Part shown: piece by piece, positions 48,186 through 56,587 of the stretch
Layout: every line of letters begins with the position of its first letter
Numbering within the stretch: position 1 is the stretch's first letter
Source: Lachnospiraceae bacterium
Lineage (GTDB): Bacteria; Bacillota; Clostridia; Lachnospirales; Lachnospiraceae
DNA length: 64,000 nt
Direction of reading: 5' to 3'
Assembly: GCA_024687125.1 (NCBI GenBank)
Contig: JAILFA010000124.1
Span: forward strand, 1 to 64,000
The notes under the pieces: generated by a model
The model's input: the letters and a program-made list of their open reading frames with translations, nothing else
The model's database searches: none
What the model was told of the DNA's origin: nothing
Program-made: the position numbers and the translations under genes

Positions 48186-49262
48186 ATGAGCATATCTGCC
48201 ATATCCTTGTCAGGCGGGAATCCGTGGAGTTTCTACGGATCCGGCGCCGCCGTCAAAGCACAGGGAGCATTCGATGCTTCGACCTGTGAAACCGCATCCG
48301 ATGAGCAGTCCCAGCCCAGATCCATTTCGCAGAGAAAAGAACTCCTTGACCAGCTCCGGCAACTGCGGGAGGAAAAGCAGCAGGAAAAGACAAACCCTTT
48401 TGCCGTGACCACAGAGGACATGGTCTCCTCTCTGTTTGGGGAGACAAAAGCAGAGGACAAGGAGGAGCCCAAAGAGAACACCTCCGTGAACTACAACTTC
48501 CGTTCCGTCACCAGTAAGATCCAGCAGGCAAAGACATCGGCGAGCGCCGGGCAGGCGGTCCTGTCGGCCAAGCGCAAGATCCAGGAGCTCAAGCGCAAAC
48601 TCGCGAACAGTGATGCCGATCCCGACGAAATCACCTTTGCCTTGAACCACGCTAAACGGATCGAGCGGGTCGCCAGGAAAAAGCAGCACCACCTGGAAAT
48701 GGAGGAACAGATCATCCGCACGCAGAAACGCGATGAGCGACTGGATAAGACAGCGGAGGCCGCCGAAACGATCGTCATGTCGCAGCGCGACCAGCTGGAA
48801 GACAAACTGACGGACAAACAGAATGCGTTTGACGAAAAGCAGACAGTCATGTTCGTACAGGCAATGGAAAAGCTTAAGGAATCACAGTCCGAGATCACGG
48901 ATGACATGATCGCCTCCGTGGATGAGATGATCGAAAGCCTGACGGAAAAAGAACAGGAAATGCTCTCGGAAATGGCCGAGACGCTTGAAGACATGGAAAT
49001 CCTGGATCCGCATATGAGCGAGGAGGATCTGAAAGAGCTGAGAACAAAGCATCGGAACGCGGAGAACAAGGAGATCGTCAAAGCGGACGCCGACTACTGG
49101 AAGAGCATGATGAAACATAATGCTGAGAAAGCAGCCGCTGTATCGATGAACGGCAGCTCCTCCGGTTTTACCATGCCGTCGTTCTTTGTCGGGATCGGCA
49201 TTGCCGGCGCTTCGCCCTCAGCCGCCGATCTGGTGATGTCCTCCTTTGATGCCCAGGTCTGA
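48186..49262 (+). CDS. Coiled-coil protein of unknown function
   Basis: Good SD (AGGGAGGG) before ATG; 358 aa with long charged helices (KIQELKRKLANSDADPDEITFALNHAKRIERVARKKQHH). Confidence 0.8.
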   Translation: MSISAISLSGGNPWSFYGSGAAVKAQGAFDASTCETASDEQSQPRSISQRKELLDQLRQLREEKQQEKTNPFAVTTEDMVSSLFGETKAEDKEEPKENTSVNYNFRSVTSKIQQAKTSASAGQAVLSAKRKIQELKRKLANSDADPDEITFALNHAKRIERVARKKQHHLEMEEQIIRTQKRDERLDKTAEAAETIVMSQRDQLEDKLTDKQNAFDEKQTVMFVQAMEKLKESQSEITDDMIASVDEMIESLTEKEQEMLSEMAETLEDMEILDPHMSEEDLKELRTKHRNAENKEIVKADADYWKSMMKHNAEKAAAVSMNGSSSGFTMPSFFVGIGIAGASPSAADLVMSSFDAQV

Positions 49263-49285: not shown

Positions 49286-50110
49286 TCAGGCCCTGAAATC
49301 AATGCTTGAACCGACCAGCTGCTCCTCGGGCGTCCGGACGCTGTCGCTTCTGCGGGCCATGGCCCAGTCCTCCATCATGCGGATCAGTTCTTCGACGCTG
49401 TCAGCCTGCAGAAGTTCATAATCACCGTCTTCGCCCCAGTCATCATCCGTGAAGTCCTCGATGTTTTTCTTGTCACGGGCCTCCTCGGCCTCTTTCTTTT
49501 CTGCCCGTTTTTCTGCGCGTTTCTCTTCAAGTTCTTTCTTTTCGGCCTTTTTGACGGCTTTCTTCTCCGCTTCCTTCTTCTCGGCCCGTCTTGTGGCAAC
49601 GCGTTCCCTCTGAGCGGTCATGCTCTTGTCCATGACGGCAAAGAAGGATGCCGTACCGTTGTCGTTGACCTGCATGCCGACTGTTTTAGCGCCTGGGGTC
49701 TTCATCAGCGCTTCCTGCAGCTGCGGCATCTTGTTCTGCGCCTGCGAGATGAGCCCCTCATACTTGTTCCGGTAGGCTTCATCCGCAGCCATCCGTTCGA
49801 TCTTGTCCTCGTCGATCAGAACGACCATCGTGTTTTTGTTGCCGTAGCTCCCCGCCTGCTGTTTGGCGATCTCCTTCATATCTCTGGAGACCAGCACGAA
49901 GTCCATATCTGCGTATTTCTTTTTCAGTTCGTCGTAGTATTTCTTTCCTTCTTCGGACAGCTCCGGCTTGCCGACAGTCTTTCCGAACCCCTCGGTGATC
50001 CCGGTCTTTGCCGCGCCGACGGTCTTGTCCGCAGCCTGTGCGGATGCGGCTTTCCATGCTTCTGAAACAGTGGAAACACTTCCTGATACAGAACCTGAAT
50101 ATGTGCTCAT
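49286..50110 (-). CDS. Unknown-function protein, probably DUF6033-like, with Lys/Glu/Ala-rich helix
   Basis: LSEEGKKYYDELKKKYADMDFVLVSRDMKEIAKQQAGSYGNKNTMVVLIDEDKIERMAADEAYRNKYEGLI; start at MSTYSGSVSGSV after AGGGAGGG. Confidence 0.75.
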   Translation of the reverse strand: MSTYSGSVSGSVSTVSEAWKAASAQAADKTVGAAKTGITEGFGKTVGKPELSEEGKKYYDELKKKYADMDFVLVSRDMKEIAKQQAGSYGNKNTMVVLIDEDKIERMAADEAYRNKYEGLISQAQNKMPQLQEALMKTPGAKTVGMQVNDNGTASFFAVMDKSMTAQRERVATRRAEKKEAEKKAVKKAEKKELEEKRAEKRAEKKEAEEARDKKNIEDFTDDDWGEDGDYELLQADSVEELIRMMEDWAMARRSDSVRTPEEQLVGSSIDFRA

Positions 50111-50137
50111 AGAAACCCTCCCTGGCTGAAAACGTCT

Positions 50138-50147
50138 GTCCATGGAC
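50138..50147. promoter_or_regulatory. Leader palindrome GTCCATGGAC upstream of gene 50110
   Basis: Perfect 10-bp palindrome; same as 48144-48153. Confidence 0.7.
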
Positions 50148-50164
50148 ATAATTATTCAAAATGT

Positions 50165-50409: not shown

Positions 50410-52923
50410 CTATTTCCCGGCATCCTTTTTGGCGGTCTTTTTTACAGAAGCTGCCTTTTTGGCGGGTGCCTTCTTTGCCGCAGGCTTTTTGGCGCTCTCC
50501 TTTTTGGCTGCCGAACTTTTCTCTGCCTTCGCAGCGGAAGCTTCACCCATGATCTTGCGGACACGCTCCTCTTCGATCTTCCGGTACTTCTCCTCGATCG
50601 CCTTTTCCTGCTCGGCAAGCTCGCGCTCGTAACGGTTCTTCAGTTCCTGAAGCAGTTCCTCCTGCTCCATCTCTTTCTTTTTCTTGAGCTGTGCCATCTT
50701 CTCCGCCCGCTCTTCTTCCTTGCGGATCTCGTCCTGCTCCTTGATCGCGCGGATCTTTTTCTCCTGCTCCGTATACGGCGTGTAGTTGAAGATCGCCAGA
50801 GAAAGAGGCGCGGTCTTTACTTCGATGCTGTACAGCCTGCCGTCACCGGCGCGGCGCTTAGCCTCGATCGCCTGACGGTTGATCGTGCCCTTGCCGCCGA
50901 ACTTCCTGTCATCGGTATTGAAGATCTCCTTGTATTTTCCGTCATTCGGAACACCGACCGTAAAGCTCTGCGGGATACCGGCAAAGTTTGCAACGACCAC
51001 CAGGAACTGGTCCTCGCCCTTTGCCTTTCGCAGGAACGACAGCATGCACGCATCGCTGGCCATGCAGTTGATCCATTCAAATCCGTCCTCGCAGCGGTCA
51101 AGTTCATGAAGAGCAGGTTCTTTTTCATAGAGTCTGTTCAGCGCGGCGATCATCTCCGCGAAGCCTTCCCTGCCTTCTCCGAGGACCTCGGCAGCACCTG
51201 CATGAAGGAGCTTCCCGCCGGGATGTGTATACATATAGGCGACCGCCTGCCTGACACCGGCCATCTTCGCCTCATCTTCTCCCGGAAGGCGCTCAAAGAG
51301 AGTCCTGACGCCGCCGGACAATGCGTCCTTGCTGAGCGCCAGCACAAACCGCTCCGTGTAGCAATACAGAAGGCTGAAGGTCAGTTCATTATGCGCACCG
51401 GAACGATGGATCGGATCGTAATCCAGATACTTGAGGAAATCATCCGACCATCCGTTGTTGATCTTGTAGGTAAACCCAAGACCGCCTTCATCGACGGGAG
51501 ATGTCACCTGCGGATAACAGGCGCTCTCGCGCGCGATCGTCACGATCCCGGGATCTCTCTTTCTGCAGATCTCCGTAAACTGCCGGAAGAACTCCAGCGC
51601 TTCAAGATTCTCGTTGCCGCCGTAGACATTGGGCTGCCAGGATCCGGGAGCACGGTCATAATCCAGGTAGATCGCCTTGGCGATATCCGGCAGGCGGAAA
51701 CCGTCCACATGGAAACGATCCATCCAGTACACCGCATTGGAAAGCAGGAAGCTCACGACCGGGCCGCGGCCGTAATCGAAAAGCCTGTAGCCCGTATAGG
51801 GCTGAATGCCCTTCTCCCCGCCGTATTCATAGAGCGGCTCACCTGTATAACCCGCCATACCGCAGTCAAATTCGGGAAAAGTGACCGGCGCCCAGTCAAG
51901 CAGCACCCGTACCCCGGCAGCATGCAGGGCATTGACAAGATACTGGAGTTCCGACGCATCTCCGCCTGTTCCGGCAACCGCAAAGTATCCGGTGATCTCA
52001 TAGGGGTTCATCACGTGATGTTCCATGATCGGAAGAAGGACCACGGACTGATAGCCGCATTTCTTCACATAATCCAGGATATCCTCGGCGATCTCGCGAT
52101 AGGTGACGCGTTCTCTCGTCTTTTTGGTATCACTCCGAAAGGCGGCGAAATCCTCGATATAGATCTCGCCCGCGGAGATCGGCCTGTCAGCCGTTCTGGA
52201 GCGCCTGCGCTCCTGAAGGAACGCCTCGTCAGTCCAGGCAAAGGTATCCTCGGCGACGACCACGGAAATATCCGCATGGGTATCTCTGGCACGGAAAGCA
52301 TACGGATCCGGTTTCTTGAACAGGATCCCCTGACGGGTCTTGATCTCGAACTGATACTCGTCCCCGGCTTCGACACCGGGCACAAAGACCTCGAAAATGC
52401 CGCTCTTCTCAATCTGCTTCATCTGATGAAGGCGGCCGTCCCAGTTGTTAAAAGTGCCGACGACACTGACTCTGGCGACATCCGGAGCCCATACGGCGAA
52501 TTCACAGCCCCTGACACCGTCCCGGGTCATCATATGCGCTCCGAGCTTTTCAAAGATGTAATAGTGCAGTCCGTTGCCGAAGCGGATCGTATCCTCCCGC
52601 GTGATCAGCGGTGCGAACACATAAGGATCCGCGACCGTCTTCTTTTCGCCGTCCTCATAGGTGACCTCATAAAGGTATTCCTGCTTATCCCTGTGCGGGA
52701 TCAGGACAGCGAAGAATCCGGATTCATCCGCCATCTCCATCGGAATACCCGATTTGCCTTTGATCTTGACAGCAACACCGGCAGCTCCCGGGAAGAACGC
52801 CTGGATGAGATCGCTGCCGCCGACCTTGTGCGAACCGAGGATCCGGTGCGGGTCATCCCCGTCGGAATAGATGATCTCCTCGATCTCCGGCCAGTTCATC
52901 AGCTTATAAAGTTTGTTGTTCAT
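50410..52923 (-). CDS. Catalytically degenerate 1,4-alpha-glucan branching enzyme (GlgB) homologue with coiled coil and Lys/Ala-rich C-terminal tail
   Basis: CBM48/GH13 architecture (GVRGCEFAVWAPDVARVSVVGTFNNWDGR; LLDWAPVTFPEFDCGMAGYTGEPLYEY; VDEGGLGFTYKINNGWSDDFLKYLDYDP), but active-site motifs are RLPDI, ARESA and SKDAL. Ends AAKKESAKKPAAKKAPAKKAASVKKTAKKDAGK. Confidence 0.9.
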   Translation of the reverse strand: MNNKLYKLMNWPEIEEIIYSDGDDPHRILGSHKVGGSDLIQAFFPGAAGVAVKIKGKSGIPMEMADESGFFAVLIPHRDKQEYLYEVTYEDGEKKTVADPYVFAPLITREDTIRFGNGLHYYIFEKLGAHMMTRDGVRGCEFAVWAPDVARVSVVGTFNNWDGRLHQMKQIEKSGIFEVFVPGVEAGDEYQFEIKTRQGILFKKPDPYAFRARDTHADISVVVAEDTFAWTDEAFLQERRRSRTADRPISAGEIYIEDFAAFRSDTKKTRERVTYREIAEDILDYVKKCGYQSVVLLPIMEHHVMNPYEITGYFAVAGTGGDASELQYLVNALHAAGVRVLLDWAPVTFPEFDCGMAGYTGEPLYEYGGEKGIQPYTGYRLFDYGRGPVVSFLLSNAVYWMDRFHVDGFRLPDIAKAIYLDYDRAPGSWQPNVYGGNENLEALEFFRQFTEICRKRDPGIVTIARESACYPQVTSPVDEGGLGFTYKINNGWSDDFLKYLDYDPIHRSGAHNELTFSLLYCYTERFVLALSKDALSGGVRTLFERLPGEDEAKMAGVRQAVAYMYTHPGGKLLHAGAAEVLGEGREGFAEMIAALNRLYEKEPALHELDRCEDGFEWINCMASDACMLSFLRKAKGEDQFLVVVANFAGIPQSFTVGVPNDGKYKEIFNTDDRKFGGKGTINRQAIEAKRRAGDGRLYSIEVKTAPLSLAIFNYTPYTEQEKKIRAIKEQDEIRKEEERAEKMAQLKKKKEMEQEELLQELKNRYERELAEQEKAIEEKYRKIEEERVRKIMGEASAAKAEKSSAAKKESAKKPAAKKAPAKKAASVKKTAKKDAGK

Positions 52924-54161
52924 AGGCCCTCCCCCGTGATATCATGGATAAACAGTCCGCTGAGCAGTTTCGGTTCAAACCAGGTAGATTTCGGCGGCAT
53001 CAGACGCCCTTCGTCCGCCACGGCAAAAAGCTCCTGCAAAGAAGTCGGGTGCATGGAAAACGCGATCTGCATATCCTCCCGGCAGCGTCTTTCCAGTTCG
53101 CCGAGTCCCCGGATCCCGCCGACAAAATCGATCCTCTTATCTGTCTTGGGATCGCTGATCCCAAGCAGCGGCTCCAGCACCTCGCGCTGCAGCAAAGCGA
53201 CATCCAGCCCCTCCACGGCGTCATCGACCCGCTTTTCCTCTCTGGCGGTAAGACGATACCATCTGCCCCCAAGGAACATGCCAAAGACGCCCTTCATCTC
53301 CGGTGATACCGCACTCTCCGATCCTTCGACGGTAAAGATCCCCCGGAGAGCCTCCAGAAACTCCTCCGGTGTCCGGCCGTTCAGATCCCGCACCACACGA
53401 TTATAATCGAGGATCCTGAGCTCATCCTCCGGGAAAAGCACGGCCAGGAAATGATCGCCGGGAACGGGCGCCCCGCCGGCAGCCTCCCTGCGCATCCTGC
53501 CGACACGCACCGCTGAAGCACAGCGATGATGACCGTCAGCGATATAGATCGCATCCATCGCCTGAAAGACTTTGCGGATCCGATCGATGTCAGACGATTC
53601 ATTGATAATAAATATTCGATTTTCCGTTCCATCATGAGAGGTGAACGAATAAACAGGCTCGACAGCACGCCATTTCTCGACAATCGCCGAGATCTCAGCC
53701 TGTCTGCGGAAGCACAGAAAGATCGGTCCTGTCTGCGCATCACAGGCATCCACGTGGCGCACGCGGTCCTCCTCCTTGTCGCTCCGCGTATTCTCATGCT
53801 TCTTGATCACACCCGACAGATAGTCATCGATCGATGAGCAGGCGACAATTCCGGTCTGCACATGACCACGGAAAGTCTGCTCGTAAAGATAGTACGCAGG
53901 CCTGTCCTCGCGGATAAAACGCCCGTTTTCTATGCTCTGCCACAGCAGATCATGCGCTTTTGCGTACACCTCCGGCGCATACATGTCATGATCCGGCGGA
54001 AACTGTGTCTCCGGCCGGTCGATCGCAAGAAAAGAGCCGGGGTGCTCCTCCACAAAGCGCCTCGCCTCTTCTCTGTCAAATACATCGTAAGGAAGTGCGG
54101 CGATCTCCTGTGCAAGATCCGCACGGGGTCTTATCGCCGAAAAAGGAATGATATCCGCCAA
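52920..54161 (-). CDS. DUF1015 family protein
   Basis: LADIIPFSAIRPRADLAQEIAALPYDVFDREEARRFVEEHPGSFLAIDRPE; ADGHHRCASAVRV; likely TTG start at 54161 after GGAGAGG. Confidence 0.88.
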   Translation of the reverse strand: MADIIPFSAIRPRADLAQEIAALPYDVFDREEARRFVEEHPGSFLAIDRPETQFPPDHDMYAPEVYAKAHDLLWQSIENGRFIREDRPAYYLYEQTFRGHVQTGIVACSSIDDYLSGVIKKHENTRSDKEEDRVRHVDACDAQTGPIFLCFRRQAEISAIVEKWRAVEPVYSFTSHDGTENRIFIINESSDIDRIRKVFQAMDAIYIADGHHRCASAVRVGRMRREAAGGAPVPGDHFLAVLFPEDELRILDYNRVVRDLNGRTPEEFLEALRGIFTVEGSESAVSPEMKGVFGMFLGGRWYRLTAREEKRVDDAVEGLDVALLQREVLEPLLGISDPKTDKRIDFVGGIRGLGELERRCREDMQIAFSMHPTSLQELFAVADEGRLMPPKSTWFEPKLLSGLFIHDITGEGL

Positions 54162-54271
54162 AACAGCCTCTCCTTTGCAGTAAAATACGCAGGTAAACAG
54201 CTCTTTCTTCCTGTCTACCTGCGTATTATACCACAAATCAAAATGCCTGCAAAAGAAATGGGGATTTTTCT

Positions 54272-55441
54272 CTACTTTTTCTCCCGCACGACACGCACCC
54301 GATAAACGCCGTCAATGCTGCGCAGCTTGTCTACAACTTTGTCCGGCACATCGTCATCAAGATCGATCAGCGTGTAGGCGACCTCTCCCTTGGACTTGTT
54401 GGTCATGTCGGAGATGTTGCAGCCGGCATCGCCGATGGTCTGCGTGTATTTACTGATCATATTGGCGACATTCTTATGGAACACCGCGATACGGGGCTTC
54501 ACGCAGAGACCCAGATCACAGCGGGGATAATTGACACTGTTGAGGATATTGCCGTTCTCCAGGTAGTTCATGAGCTCATTAACAGCCGCAACGGCACAGT
54601 TGTCCTCACTCTCCTCGGTAGACGCCCCGAGGTGCGGGATAACAATGCATCCGTCGTGCCCTGCCACCGTCGTATTCGGGAAATCCGACACATAATTACG
54701 GATCTTGCCGGCGTTGATCCCTGCCAGCACATCTGTCTCATTGCACAGGATATCCCGGGCAAGATTGATCAGGATCACGCCCTTCTTCATCTTGGCGATC
54801 GCCTCCGCGTTGATCATGCCCTTTGTGGAATCCAGTGCCGGCACATGGATCGTGATGATATCGCACTTGCTGTAGATCTCGTTGACATCCGTCACATGCC
54901 GGACATCTCTCGAAAGCGCCCAGGCCGCCTCAACCGACAGATACGGATCATAGCCGAAGACCTCCATGCCCAGGCCCCTCGCCGCATTGGCGACACGGAC
55001 GCCGATGGCGCCGAGGCCGATGACACCGAGCTTCTTGCCCATGATCTCCGTTCCGGCGAACTTTTTCTTGCTCTTTTCAGTAAGCTTGGCGATATCCGGG
55101 TCGCCGGCGTTCTTTCTCACCCATTCGATACCGCCCACGATATCACGGGATGCCAGGAGCATGGCAGCAAGCACCATCTCCTTGACGCCGTTGGCGTTGG
55201 CCCCCGGCGTATTGAACACAACGATGCCCTTCTTTGCGCATTTATCTACCGGAATGTTGTTGACTCCGGCACCGGCACGGGCGATGGCGAGCAGTCTGTC
55301 GGAGAACTCCATCTCAAGCATATTGGCGCTGCGGACCAGGATACCGTCCGCCTGGTCGACATCATCTGTTGCCTGATAGAGATCCGAAAAGTTGTTCAGA
55401 CCGATCCTGGCGATCGGGTTGAGGCATTTGTACTGATACAT
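54272..55441 (-). CDS. serA: Phosphoglycerate dehydrogenase with ACT domain
   Basis: GILVRSANMLEMEFSDRLLAIARAGAGVNNIPVDKCAKKGIVVFNTPGANANGVKE; GKKLGVIGLGAIGVRVANAARGLGMEVFGYDPY. Confidence 0.93.
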   Translation of the reverse strand: MYQYKCLNPIARIGLNNFSDLYQATDDVDQADGILVRSANMLEMEFSDRLLAIARAGAGVNNIPVDKCAKKGIVVFNTPGANANGVKEMVLAAMLLASRDIVGGIEWVRKNAGDPDIAKLTEKSKKKFAGTEIMGKKLGVIGLGAIGVRVANAARGLGMEVFGYDPYLSVEAAWALSRDVRHVTDVNEIYSKCDIITIHVPALDSTKGMINAEAIAKMKKGVILINLARDILCNETDVLAGINAGKIRNYVSDFPNTTVAGHDGCIVIPHLGASTEESEDNCAVAAVNELMNYLENGNILNSVNYPRCDLGLCVKPRIAVFHKNVANMISKYTQTIGDAGCNISDMTNKSKGEVAYTLIDLDDDVPDKVVDKLRSIDGVYRVRVVREKK

Positions 55442-55459: not shown

Positions 55460-56560
55460 TTATCGGTTTTTCGTATATTTCGCGTGCTCTTTTTCAAACT
55501 TCTCCATGAAACTGACGAGCTTCTTTACTCCTTCGATCGGCATCGCATTGTAGATGGATGCACGCATGCCGCCCACCGTGCGGTGTCCCTTGAGGCTGAC
55601 AAAGCCCTGTGCGGTCGCTTCCTTGATAAATGCCGCGTTGAGATCATCGTCGCCGGTCACGAAAGGCACGTTCATCAGAGAGCGGTCTTCCCTGCGCACG
55701 GTTCCTTTGAACATTTTACTCGAATCCAGGAAATCATAGAGGATTGCTGCCTTCTCCTCGTTGCGTTTCTTCATCTCTGTCAGGCCGCCCTGCGCCTTAA
55801 GCCATTCAAAGACCAGGCCGCAGATATAGATCGCCCAGCAGTTCGGCGTGTTATACAGAGAACCGTTGTCCGCCTGTGTCTTCCATTTGAGCATCGTAGG
55901 CACATAGCTCTCCAGATCGTCGCGGATCAGATCCTCGCGGATGATCGAGATCACAAGGCCGGCAGGCCCGACATTCTTCTGCACGCCGCCGTAGATGACT
56001 CCGTACTTTGTTACATCAACCGGCTCCGAGAGGAAGCACGAGGAAACATCGGAAACCAGAACATGGCCTTTGGTGTTTGGCATTGTTTTGAACTTGGTCC
56101 CGTAAATGGTGTTGTTCTCGCAGATATAGACATAATCCGCATCCGCCGGAATGTCCAGATCACTGCAGTCAGGAATATAGGAAAACGTCTGGTCTTCGCT
56201 CGAAGCGACCTTGACGGCCTCCAGATACTTGCCGGCCTCCTGATATGCCTTTTTCGCCCACTGGCCGGTCACGATATAGGCTGCCTTGCCGTTCTTTTTG
56301 AGGTTCATCGGCACAGCGGCAAACTGCTGGCTCGCACCGCCCTGCAGGAAAAGGACTTTATAGTTATCGGGGATCTGCATCAGGTCGCGGATGTCCTGTT
56401 CAGCCTTTCCGATCAGTTCATCAAAGGTCTTTGTCCGATGACTCATTTCCATCACGGACATGCCGGAGCCATGATAGTCGAACATCTCCTCCTGTGCCTT
56501 TTTCAGAACTTCCTCCGGCAGAACCGCGGGACCGGCTGAAAAATTGTAGACTCTGTTCAT
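55460..56560 (-). CDS. serC: Phosphoserine aminotransferase
   Basis: MNRVYNFSAGPAVLPEEVLKKAQEEMFDYHGSGMSVMEMSHRTKTFDELI; YGVIYGGVQKNVGPAGLVISIIRED. Confidence 0.96.
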   Translation of the reverse strand: MNRVYNFSAGPAVLPEEVLKKAQEEMFDYHGSGMSVMEMSHRTKTFDELIGKAEQDIRDLMQIPDNYKVLFLQGGASQQFAAVPMNLKKNGKAAYIVTGQWAKKAYQEAGKYLEAVKVASSEDQTFSYIPDCSDLDIPADADYVYICENNTIYGTKFKTMPNTKGHVLVSDVSSCFLSEPVDVTKYGVIYGGVQKNVGPAGLVISIIREDLIRDDLESYVPTMLKWKTQADNGSLYNTPNCWAIYICGLVFEWLKAQGGLTEMKKRNEEKAAILYDFLDSSKMFKGTVRREDRSLMNVPFVTGDDDLNAAFIKEATAQGFVSLKGHRTVGGMRASIYNAMPIEGVKKLVSFMEKFEKEHAKYTKNR

Positions 56561-56587
56561 GATCCACCTCCTGATTAAAAACAAAAA

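Follow-up and report, generated by a model that had tools for sequence, protein, structure and literature searches.

A GlgB paralogue without its catalytic residues is fixed in Butyrivibrio, and the same gene appears to have been inactivated repeatedly across Lachnospiraceae

The 64,000-nucleotide stretch of Lachnospiraceae DNA analyzed here (the window) encodes a paralogue of the glycogen branching enzyme GlgB that has lost its catalytic residues, is fixed in the genus Butyrivibrio and evolves under purifying selection. Its conservation suggests a noncatalytic role, most likely that of a glucan-binding accessory protein. These observations reach beyond the single protein, to a tailed paralogue found throughout the family, its repeated inactivation and a conserved operon.

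Results

Domain architecture and predicted fold

Domain order, profile score and predicted fold place the window protein, by ancestry, in the GlgB (GH13_9) family. Pfam recovers the complete order GlgB_N-CBM48-GH13-Alpha-amylase_C (Table 1), the score against the NCBIfam branching-enzyme model TIGR01515 is 558 bits for a cut-off of 464, and the closest solved relatives by sequence are GlgB enzymes; in the same NCBIfam search, the protein stayed below the cut-offs of both stricter GlgB models, PRK05402 and PRK12313. The AF2 model (pLDDT 87, pTM 0.83) consists of the GlgB core, a single charged helix of 76 residues and a basic tail that is disordered, and its top Foldseek match is the solved GlgB 3k1d (TM 0.89 by target length). 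The Pfam family HC2 (histone H1-like nucleoprotein) picks up two long GlgB copies from elsewhere, probably through the Lys/Ala-rich composition of their tails. A 766-aa open reading frame antisense to the gene (51106-53406, plus strand) probably owes its existence to the codon usage of the opposite strand.

Table 1. Features of the pseudoenzyme gene and of the genes upstream of it (window coordinates)
Feature	Position	Strand	Detail	Basis
GlgB pseudoenzyme gene (glgB2-type)	50410..52923	-	837 aa, ATG start	ORF, Pfam/NCBIfam, AF2, Foldseek
GlgB N-terminal domain	52621..52893	-	residues 11-101	Pfam PF22019 (GlgB_N), 103 bits
CBM48	52297..52548	-	residues 126-209; binding Trp retained in FNNWDGR	Pfam PF02922
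Thr348	51880..51882	-	replaces region-I His (E. coli H340)	alignment
Pro412	51688..51690	-	replaces nucleophile Asp (E. coli D405)	alignment
Arg465	51529..51531	-	replaces acid/base Glu (E. coli E458)	alignment
Lys532-Asp533	51325..51330	-	replace region-VII His525-Asp526	alignment
C-terminal all-beta domain	50785..51075	-	residues 617-713	Pfam PF02806 (Alpha-amylase_C)
Long Lys/Glu-rich helix (predicted)	50542..50769	-	residues 719-794	AF2 model, DSSP; composition
Disordered Lys/Ala-rich basic tail	50413..50541	-	residues 795-837, net charge +12	pLDDT under 50 from residue 792
DUF1015 gene	52920..54236	-	overlaps pseudoenzyme start	Pfam; SerK/SbnI-like fold by AF2 + Foldseek
SerA-like D-3-phosphoglycerate dehydrogenase	54272..55441	-	conserved neighbour	Pfam 2-Hacid_dh; synteny
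SerC-like phosphoserine aminotransferase	55460..56584	-	conserved neighbour	Pfam Aminotran_5; synteny

Loss of catalytic residues and active-site loops

When the protein is aligned to E. coli GlgB, the set Y300-D335-H340-R403-D405-E458-H525-D526 reads Y-D-T-R-P-R-K-D. The first-pass annotation, made from the sequence alone, had read the nucleophile Asp as replaced by Pro, the acid/base Glu as replaced by Arg, and region VII as having lost its His and Glu with the Asp kept, and the alignment agrees on each point (D405 to P412, E458 to R465, H525 to K532, E527 to A534, and D526 retained as D533). Two members of the catalytic triad are therefore lost, and the third, the transition-state Asp, is present. 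Intact copies (73 long ones, and 20 short ones from Butyrivibrio) retain every such residue, whereas the nucleophile and the acid/base are gone from every Butyrivibrio long copy (see below), a contrast that excludes chance. The annotation had also described the flanking substrate motifs as preserved, and this holds for the equivalents of Y300, D335 and R403 but not for two active-site loops, the W298 loop (SWGYQ) and the MGQEFxxxxEW...LDWxLL loop, both of which are deleted, nor for CBM48 Lys189, which is Gln in nearly all Butyrivibrio copies, nor for Arg213-Pro214, which is lost. Going by GH13 chemistry, the window protein should neither cleave nor transfer alpha-1,4 glucan.

Fixation and purifying selection in Butyrivibrio

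Of 37 same-genus genomes (that of the window included), 34 have the long copy, with sequence identities to the window protein of 49-75%; the completeness of the other three is 60-72%. None of the 63 Butyrivibrio long copies has either the nucleophile or the acid/base residue: Ser, Ala, Pro or Thr stands at the first position and Lys or Arg at the second. Nearly all have Phe, Tyr or Thr for region-I His, and the equivalent of Asp526, kept in the window protein, is Glu in most. A frame or assembly error was ruled out because identical losses recur across several species represented by isolates, including B. hungatei DSM 14810 and B. proteoclasticus.

Selection on the gene was estimated as dN/dS (NG86). 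Of the 13 long-copy pairs whose dS is below 1, 10 have a ratio of 0.020-0.080, similar to the range for the short active GlgB (0.009-0.056), and three approach saturation; the window's own subclade offers only pairs near dS saturation, with values of 0.17-0.21. Within CBM48, Trp159 is kept in 57 of the 63 copies and Lys189 is Gln in 62 of them; Arg213-Pro214 is lost as well, so the protein may bind glucan more weakly or in an altered way.

The genome of the window also carries an intact GlgB with all catalytic residues on another contig (C8), the separate active copy that the first-pass annotation had advised looking for. Its two broader claims, that the protein is noncatalytic and that selection retains it, are both well supported by the genus-wide loss of catalytic residues, the low dN/dS in orthologues, the breadth of retention and this separate intact GlgB. 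Clade-wide loss of catalytic residues, purifying selection and an intact paralogue in the same genome mark the Butyrivibrio long copy as a pseudoenzyme.

No catalytic residue is missing from the short GlgB of Butyrivibrio (~650 aa) in any of the genomes checked. Since glgC/glgD and glgA accompany the intact glgB in the window's own genome, there is a glycogen pathway for the pseudoenzyme to serve. Two separate glgC/glgD-like pairs occur there (G000:C78 and G000:C141), as they do in five other Butyrivibrio genomes.

Repeated inactivation across the family

The window protein belongs to a Lachnospiraceae-wide long GlgB paralogue with a Lys/Glu-rich C-terminal tail. Long copies with a related N-terminus are widespread in 119 other genera of the family; most are intact, and the Lys/Glu-rich extension is present in most of them, intact or degenerate. 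The nucleophile has been lost in 18 of these 119 sampled genera, with replacements that vary by lineage (N, G, C, T, S, H, I and others), and in a nineteenth degenerate genus (L146) the region-VII His alone is missing. Among short-class copies, 27 of 28 are intact, as are all 17 further ones; the one exception (L174) is a contig-edge fragment that lacks most of the N-domain and resembles a long copy. A second, intact GlgB is present in 19 of 19 other genera with a degenerate long copy (one of them represented by genome G070, where a GlgB copy is split over two frames and its state is less sure), compared with 46 of 54 genera with an intact one, a difference that is not significant (Fisher p = 0.10).

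Losses were counted on trees built without the catalytic-motif columns. A FastTree run gave four changes, with long branches joined in it; a 73-row mixture-model tree required a minimum of nine, and a 41-row tree, from which the very long branches had been left out, a minimum of five. A single ancient loss was rejected by the AU test on the 41-row tree (p = 0.0002, 153 log units), although the clustering of long branches seen with FastTree calls for some care here. At least five independent losses are well supported, and nine are likely.

A conserved serine-biosynthesis operon

Directly upstream of the pseudoenzyme gene in the window lie serC, serA and a DUF1015 gene (Table 1), the last overlapping it by an ATGA that probably couples their translation. 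This is the usual setting of the paralogue, serC-serA-DUF1015-glgB(-mscS): the order through glgB recurs in most Butyrivibrio as well as around intact orthologues from other genera, DUF1015 adjoins many degenerate long copies in other genera, and the long copy retains its ribosome-binding sites and operon position. In the family, an MscS gene lies immediately 3' of 71 of 90 intact and 12 of 18 degenerate long copies and of none of the 23 short-class copies (Fisher p = 8e-13), at a median gap of 20 nt (L202:5986-9464 and about 98 other loci), and in one Butyrivibrio cluster glgB2 and mscS are paired outside the serine operon. Within Butyrivibrio, mscS stands beside 15 of 58 glgB2 copies; there is no MscS gene downstream of the window pseudoenzyme, and its genome has only distant, 30%-identical MscS proteins. 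From gene order, the operon seems to read as serine biosynthesis, GlgB and an osmotic channel, and this linkage, to serine biosynthesis and MscS instead of glg genes, counts against a role as glycogen accessory.

A DUF1015 sequence search against the PDB returned no match, and the predicted structure resembles the free serine kinases SerK (PMC5120207) and SbnI (Foldseek E about 1e-5 to 4e-7, 12-13% identity). The protein has an invariant ADGHHR motif and, sited as it is in serC-serA, may replace SerB for the last step of serine synthesis. A 2025 survey appears to place DUF1015 (printed 'DU1015') among ParB-CTPase-fold fusions (PMC12704722).

On the downstream side of the pseudoenzyme, 49286-50149 (minus strand) encodes a DUF6033 protein (236 bits) with a Lys/Glu-rich stretch, not seen adjoining the pseudoenzyme at other loci, and 48186-49262 (plus strand) a charged 358-aa protein with no Pfam or NCBIfam match.

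Discussion

A probable noncatalytic role and its alternatives

Tight conservation without catalytic residues, together with at least five independent losses, suggests that the long GlgB probably has an important noncatalytic job; because the tail, the N-domain and the operon position are common to intact orthologues in other genera, this role is probably older than the loss of catalysis. As to what the job might be, the first-pass annotation had proposed glucan binding or scaffolding, and a glucan-binding accessory role is still the likeliest. The catalytically dead paralogue may still bind glycogen or malto-oligosaccharide via CBM48 and surface sites, it might serve the active glycogen enzymes as accessory subunit or as tether, and its basic tail could contact a second partner, for instance a protein, a nucleic acid or a membrane. 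It is tempting to speculate more broadly that the tailed Lachnospiraceae GlgB is a two-job protein whose noncatalytic job, reflected in the serC-serA-SerK-like-glgB-mscS operon and the basic tail, is conserved, and that catalysis was therefore discarded in at least five lineages that also have a short active GlgB; we offer this wider account tentatively, as quite possible but short of probable.

A serious rival, although on balance an unlikely one, is that the protein was neofunctionalized away from glycogen, its fold now being a platform for binding protein or RNA and the charged extension its working part. It draws its strength from the plant protein MKIP1, an inactive branching enzyme in which a Lys/Glu-rich insertion is essential and the CBM48 tryptophans are dispensable, and whose function is independent of glucan binding (PMC13172542), a precedent that also counts against the glucan-accessory reading. 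The window protein likewise carries a Lys/Glu helix and a Lys/Ala tail, the HC2 matches of two long copies point the same way, its operon is one of serine biosynthesis and not of glycogen, and neither the CBM48 Lys nor the glucan contacts of the active site have been kept. Against such a departure from glycogen, the CBM48 Trp is retained and the CBM48 and GH13 domains are under strong constraint.

We consider it rather improbable that the link is osmotic. On this view the long GlgB would partner the channel from the adjacent downstream mscS gene and either hold glycogen at the membrane or sense it there, with catalysis optional. The association of mscS with the long class only, and the occurrence of the pair outside the serine operon, would fit this, but operon linkage by itself is no proof of an interaction between GlgB and MscS, and the sparse occurrence of mscS beside the Butyrivibrio copies, its absence from the window and the distance of the genome's own MscS proteins argue against it.

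Less probable still is that catalysis persists through re-registered acids, Asp413 and Glu466 (each at +1) with Asp533. Among the degenerate copies, Asp indeed follows the nucleophile position in 63 of 64 and Glu the acid/base position in 64 of 64. However, no indel shifts the register, adjacent strand residues point to opposite sides, the active site is short of two loops, Glu459 is also found conserved in active copies, where it is not the catalyst, and nucleophile-less copies in other genera bear different substitutions.

The idea of a decaying, functionless duplicate, to which the constant presence of an intact GlgB (making branching by the long copy dispensable) and the very long branches of some degenerate copies in other genera lend a little color, has next to no probability left and is for Butyrivibrio already contradicted by the low dN/dS of close pairs, genus-wide retention and the preserved ribosome-binding sites and operon position.

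The repeated inactivation of one operon-locked gene amounts to a natural experiment separating catalytic from noncatalytic roles, as in ISA2 and MKIP1, and many Lachnospiraceae 'glgB' annotations need checking before they are counted as branching enzymes. Butyrivibrio are rumen bacteria, and related gut bacteria appear to have disarmed the same gene independently.

Comparison with known systems

Solved GH13_9 GlgB enzymes (E. coli 1m7x, Mycobacterium tuberculosis 3k1d, Cyanothece 5gqu) share the domain order and fold of the window protein, which keeps the region-II Arg, the region-I Asp and the Tyr300 equivalent; unlike them, it is without the nucleophile, the acid/base, the region-I His and two loops, and it adds the Lys/Glu helix and basic tail. 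In the ADP-glucose pyrophosphorylase of Firmicutes, GlgD is the noncatalytic partner of GlgC. It resembles the window protein in being a noncatalytic paralogue beside an active enzyme of the same pathway, and glgD is present in the same genome, but it belongs to another enzyme family and acts at another step.

We found no description of a bacterial inactive GlgB or pseudo-branching enzyme in the open-access literature; subscription papers may differ. In B. hungatei MB2003, glgB2 (bhn_I1458, 824 aa) is annotated as an ordinary branching enzyme alongside a 663-aa glgB1 (PMC5716241), and going by genus, length and the presence of glgB1 it is probably an orthologue of the window gene. The main texts of Butyrivibrio proteome and transcriptome papers, for their part, do not mention glgB2. 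B. fibrisolvens is known to have a genuinely active GlgB, according to a citation in PMC9960391, and glycogen-like storage material has been reported for B. proteoclasticus, as cited in PMC5217386.

The closest precedents are found in plants, in MKIP1 and ISA2. MKIP1, a class III branching enzyme formerly called Arabidopsis BE1, belongs to an intron-splicing complex in plastids (PMC13172542), and, like the window protein, it is inactive, keeps the architecture with substituted catalytic residues, carries a Lys/Glu-rich extra region and coexists with active paralogues in the same organism. The two differ in that MKIP1 represents a plant/streptophyte clade and has its Lys/Glu region after the CBM, between CBM and barrel, whereas the window protein is bacterial and has it at the C terminus. 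ISA2 (isoamylase 2; PMC12510319) likewise acts in glucan metabolism as a GH13 paralogue in which the loss of catalytic residues is conserved and which selection maintains beside an active paralogue, and by analogy it offers a precedent for the scaffold alternative; it differs in belonging to the debranching family, and so is no branching enzyme, and in having a known heteromeric partner, ISA1.
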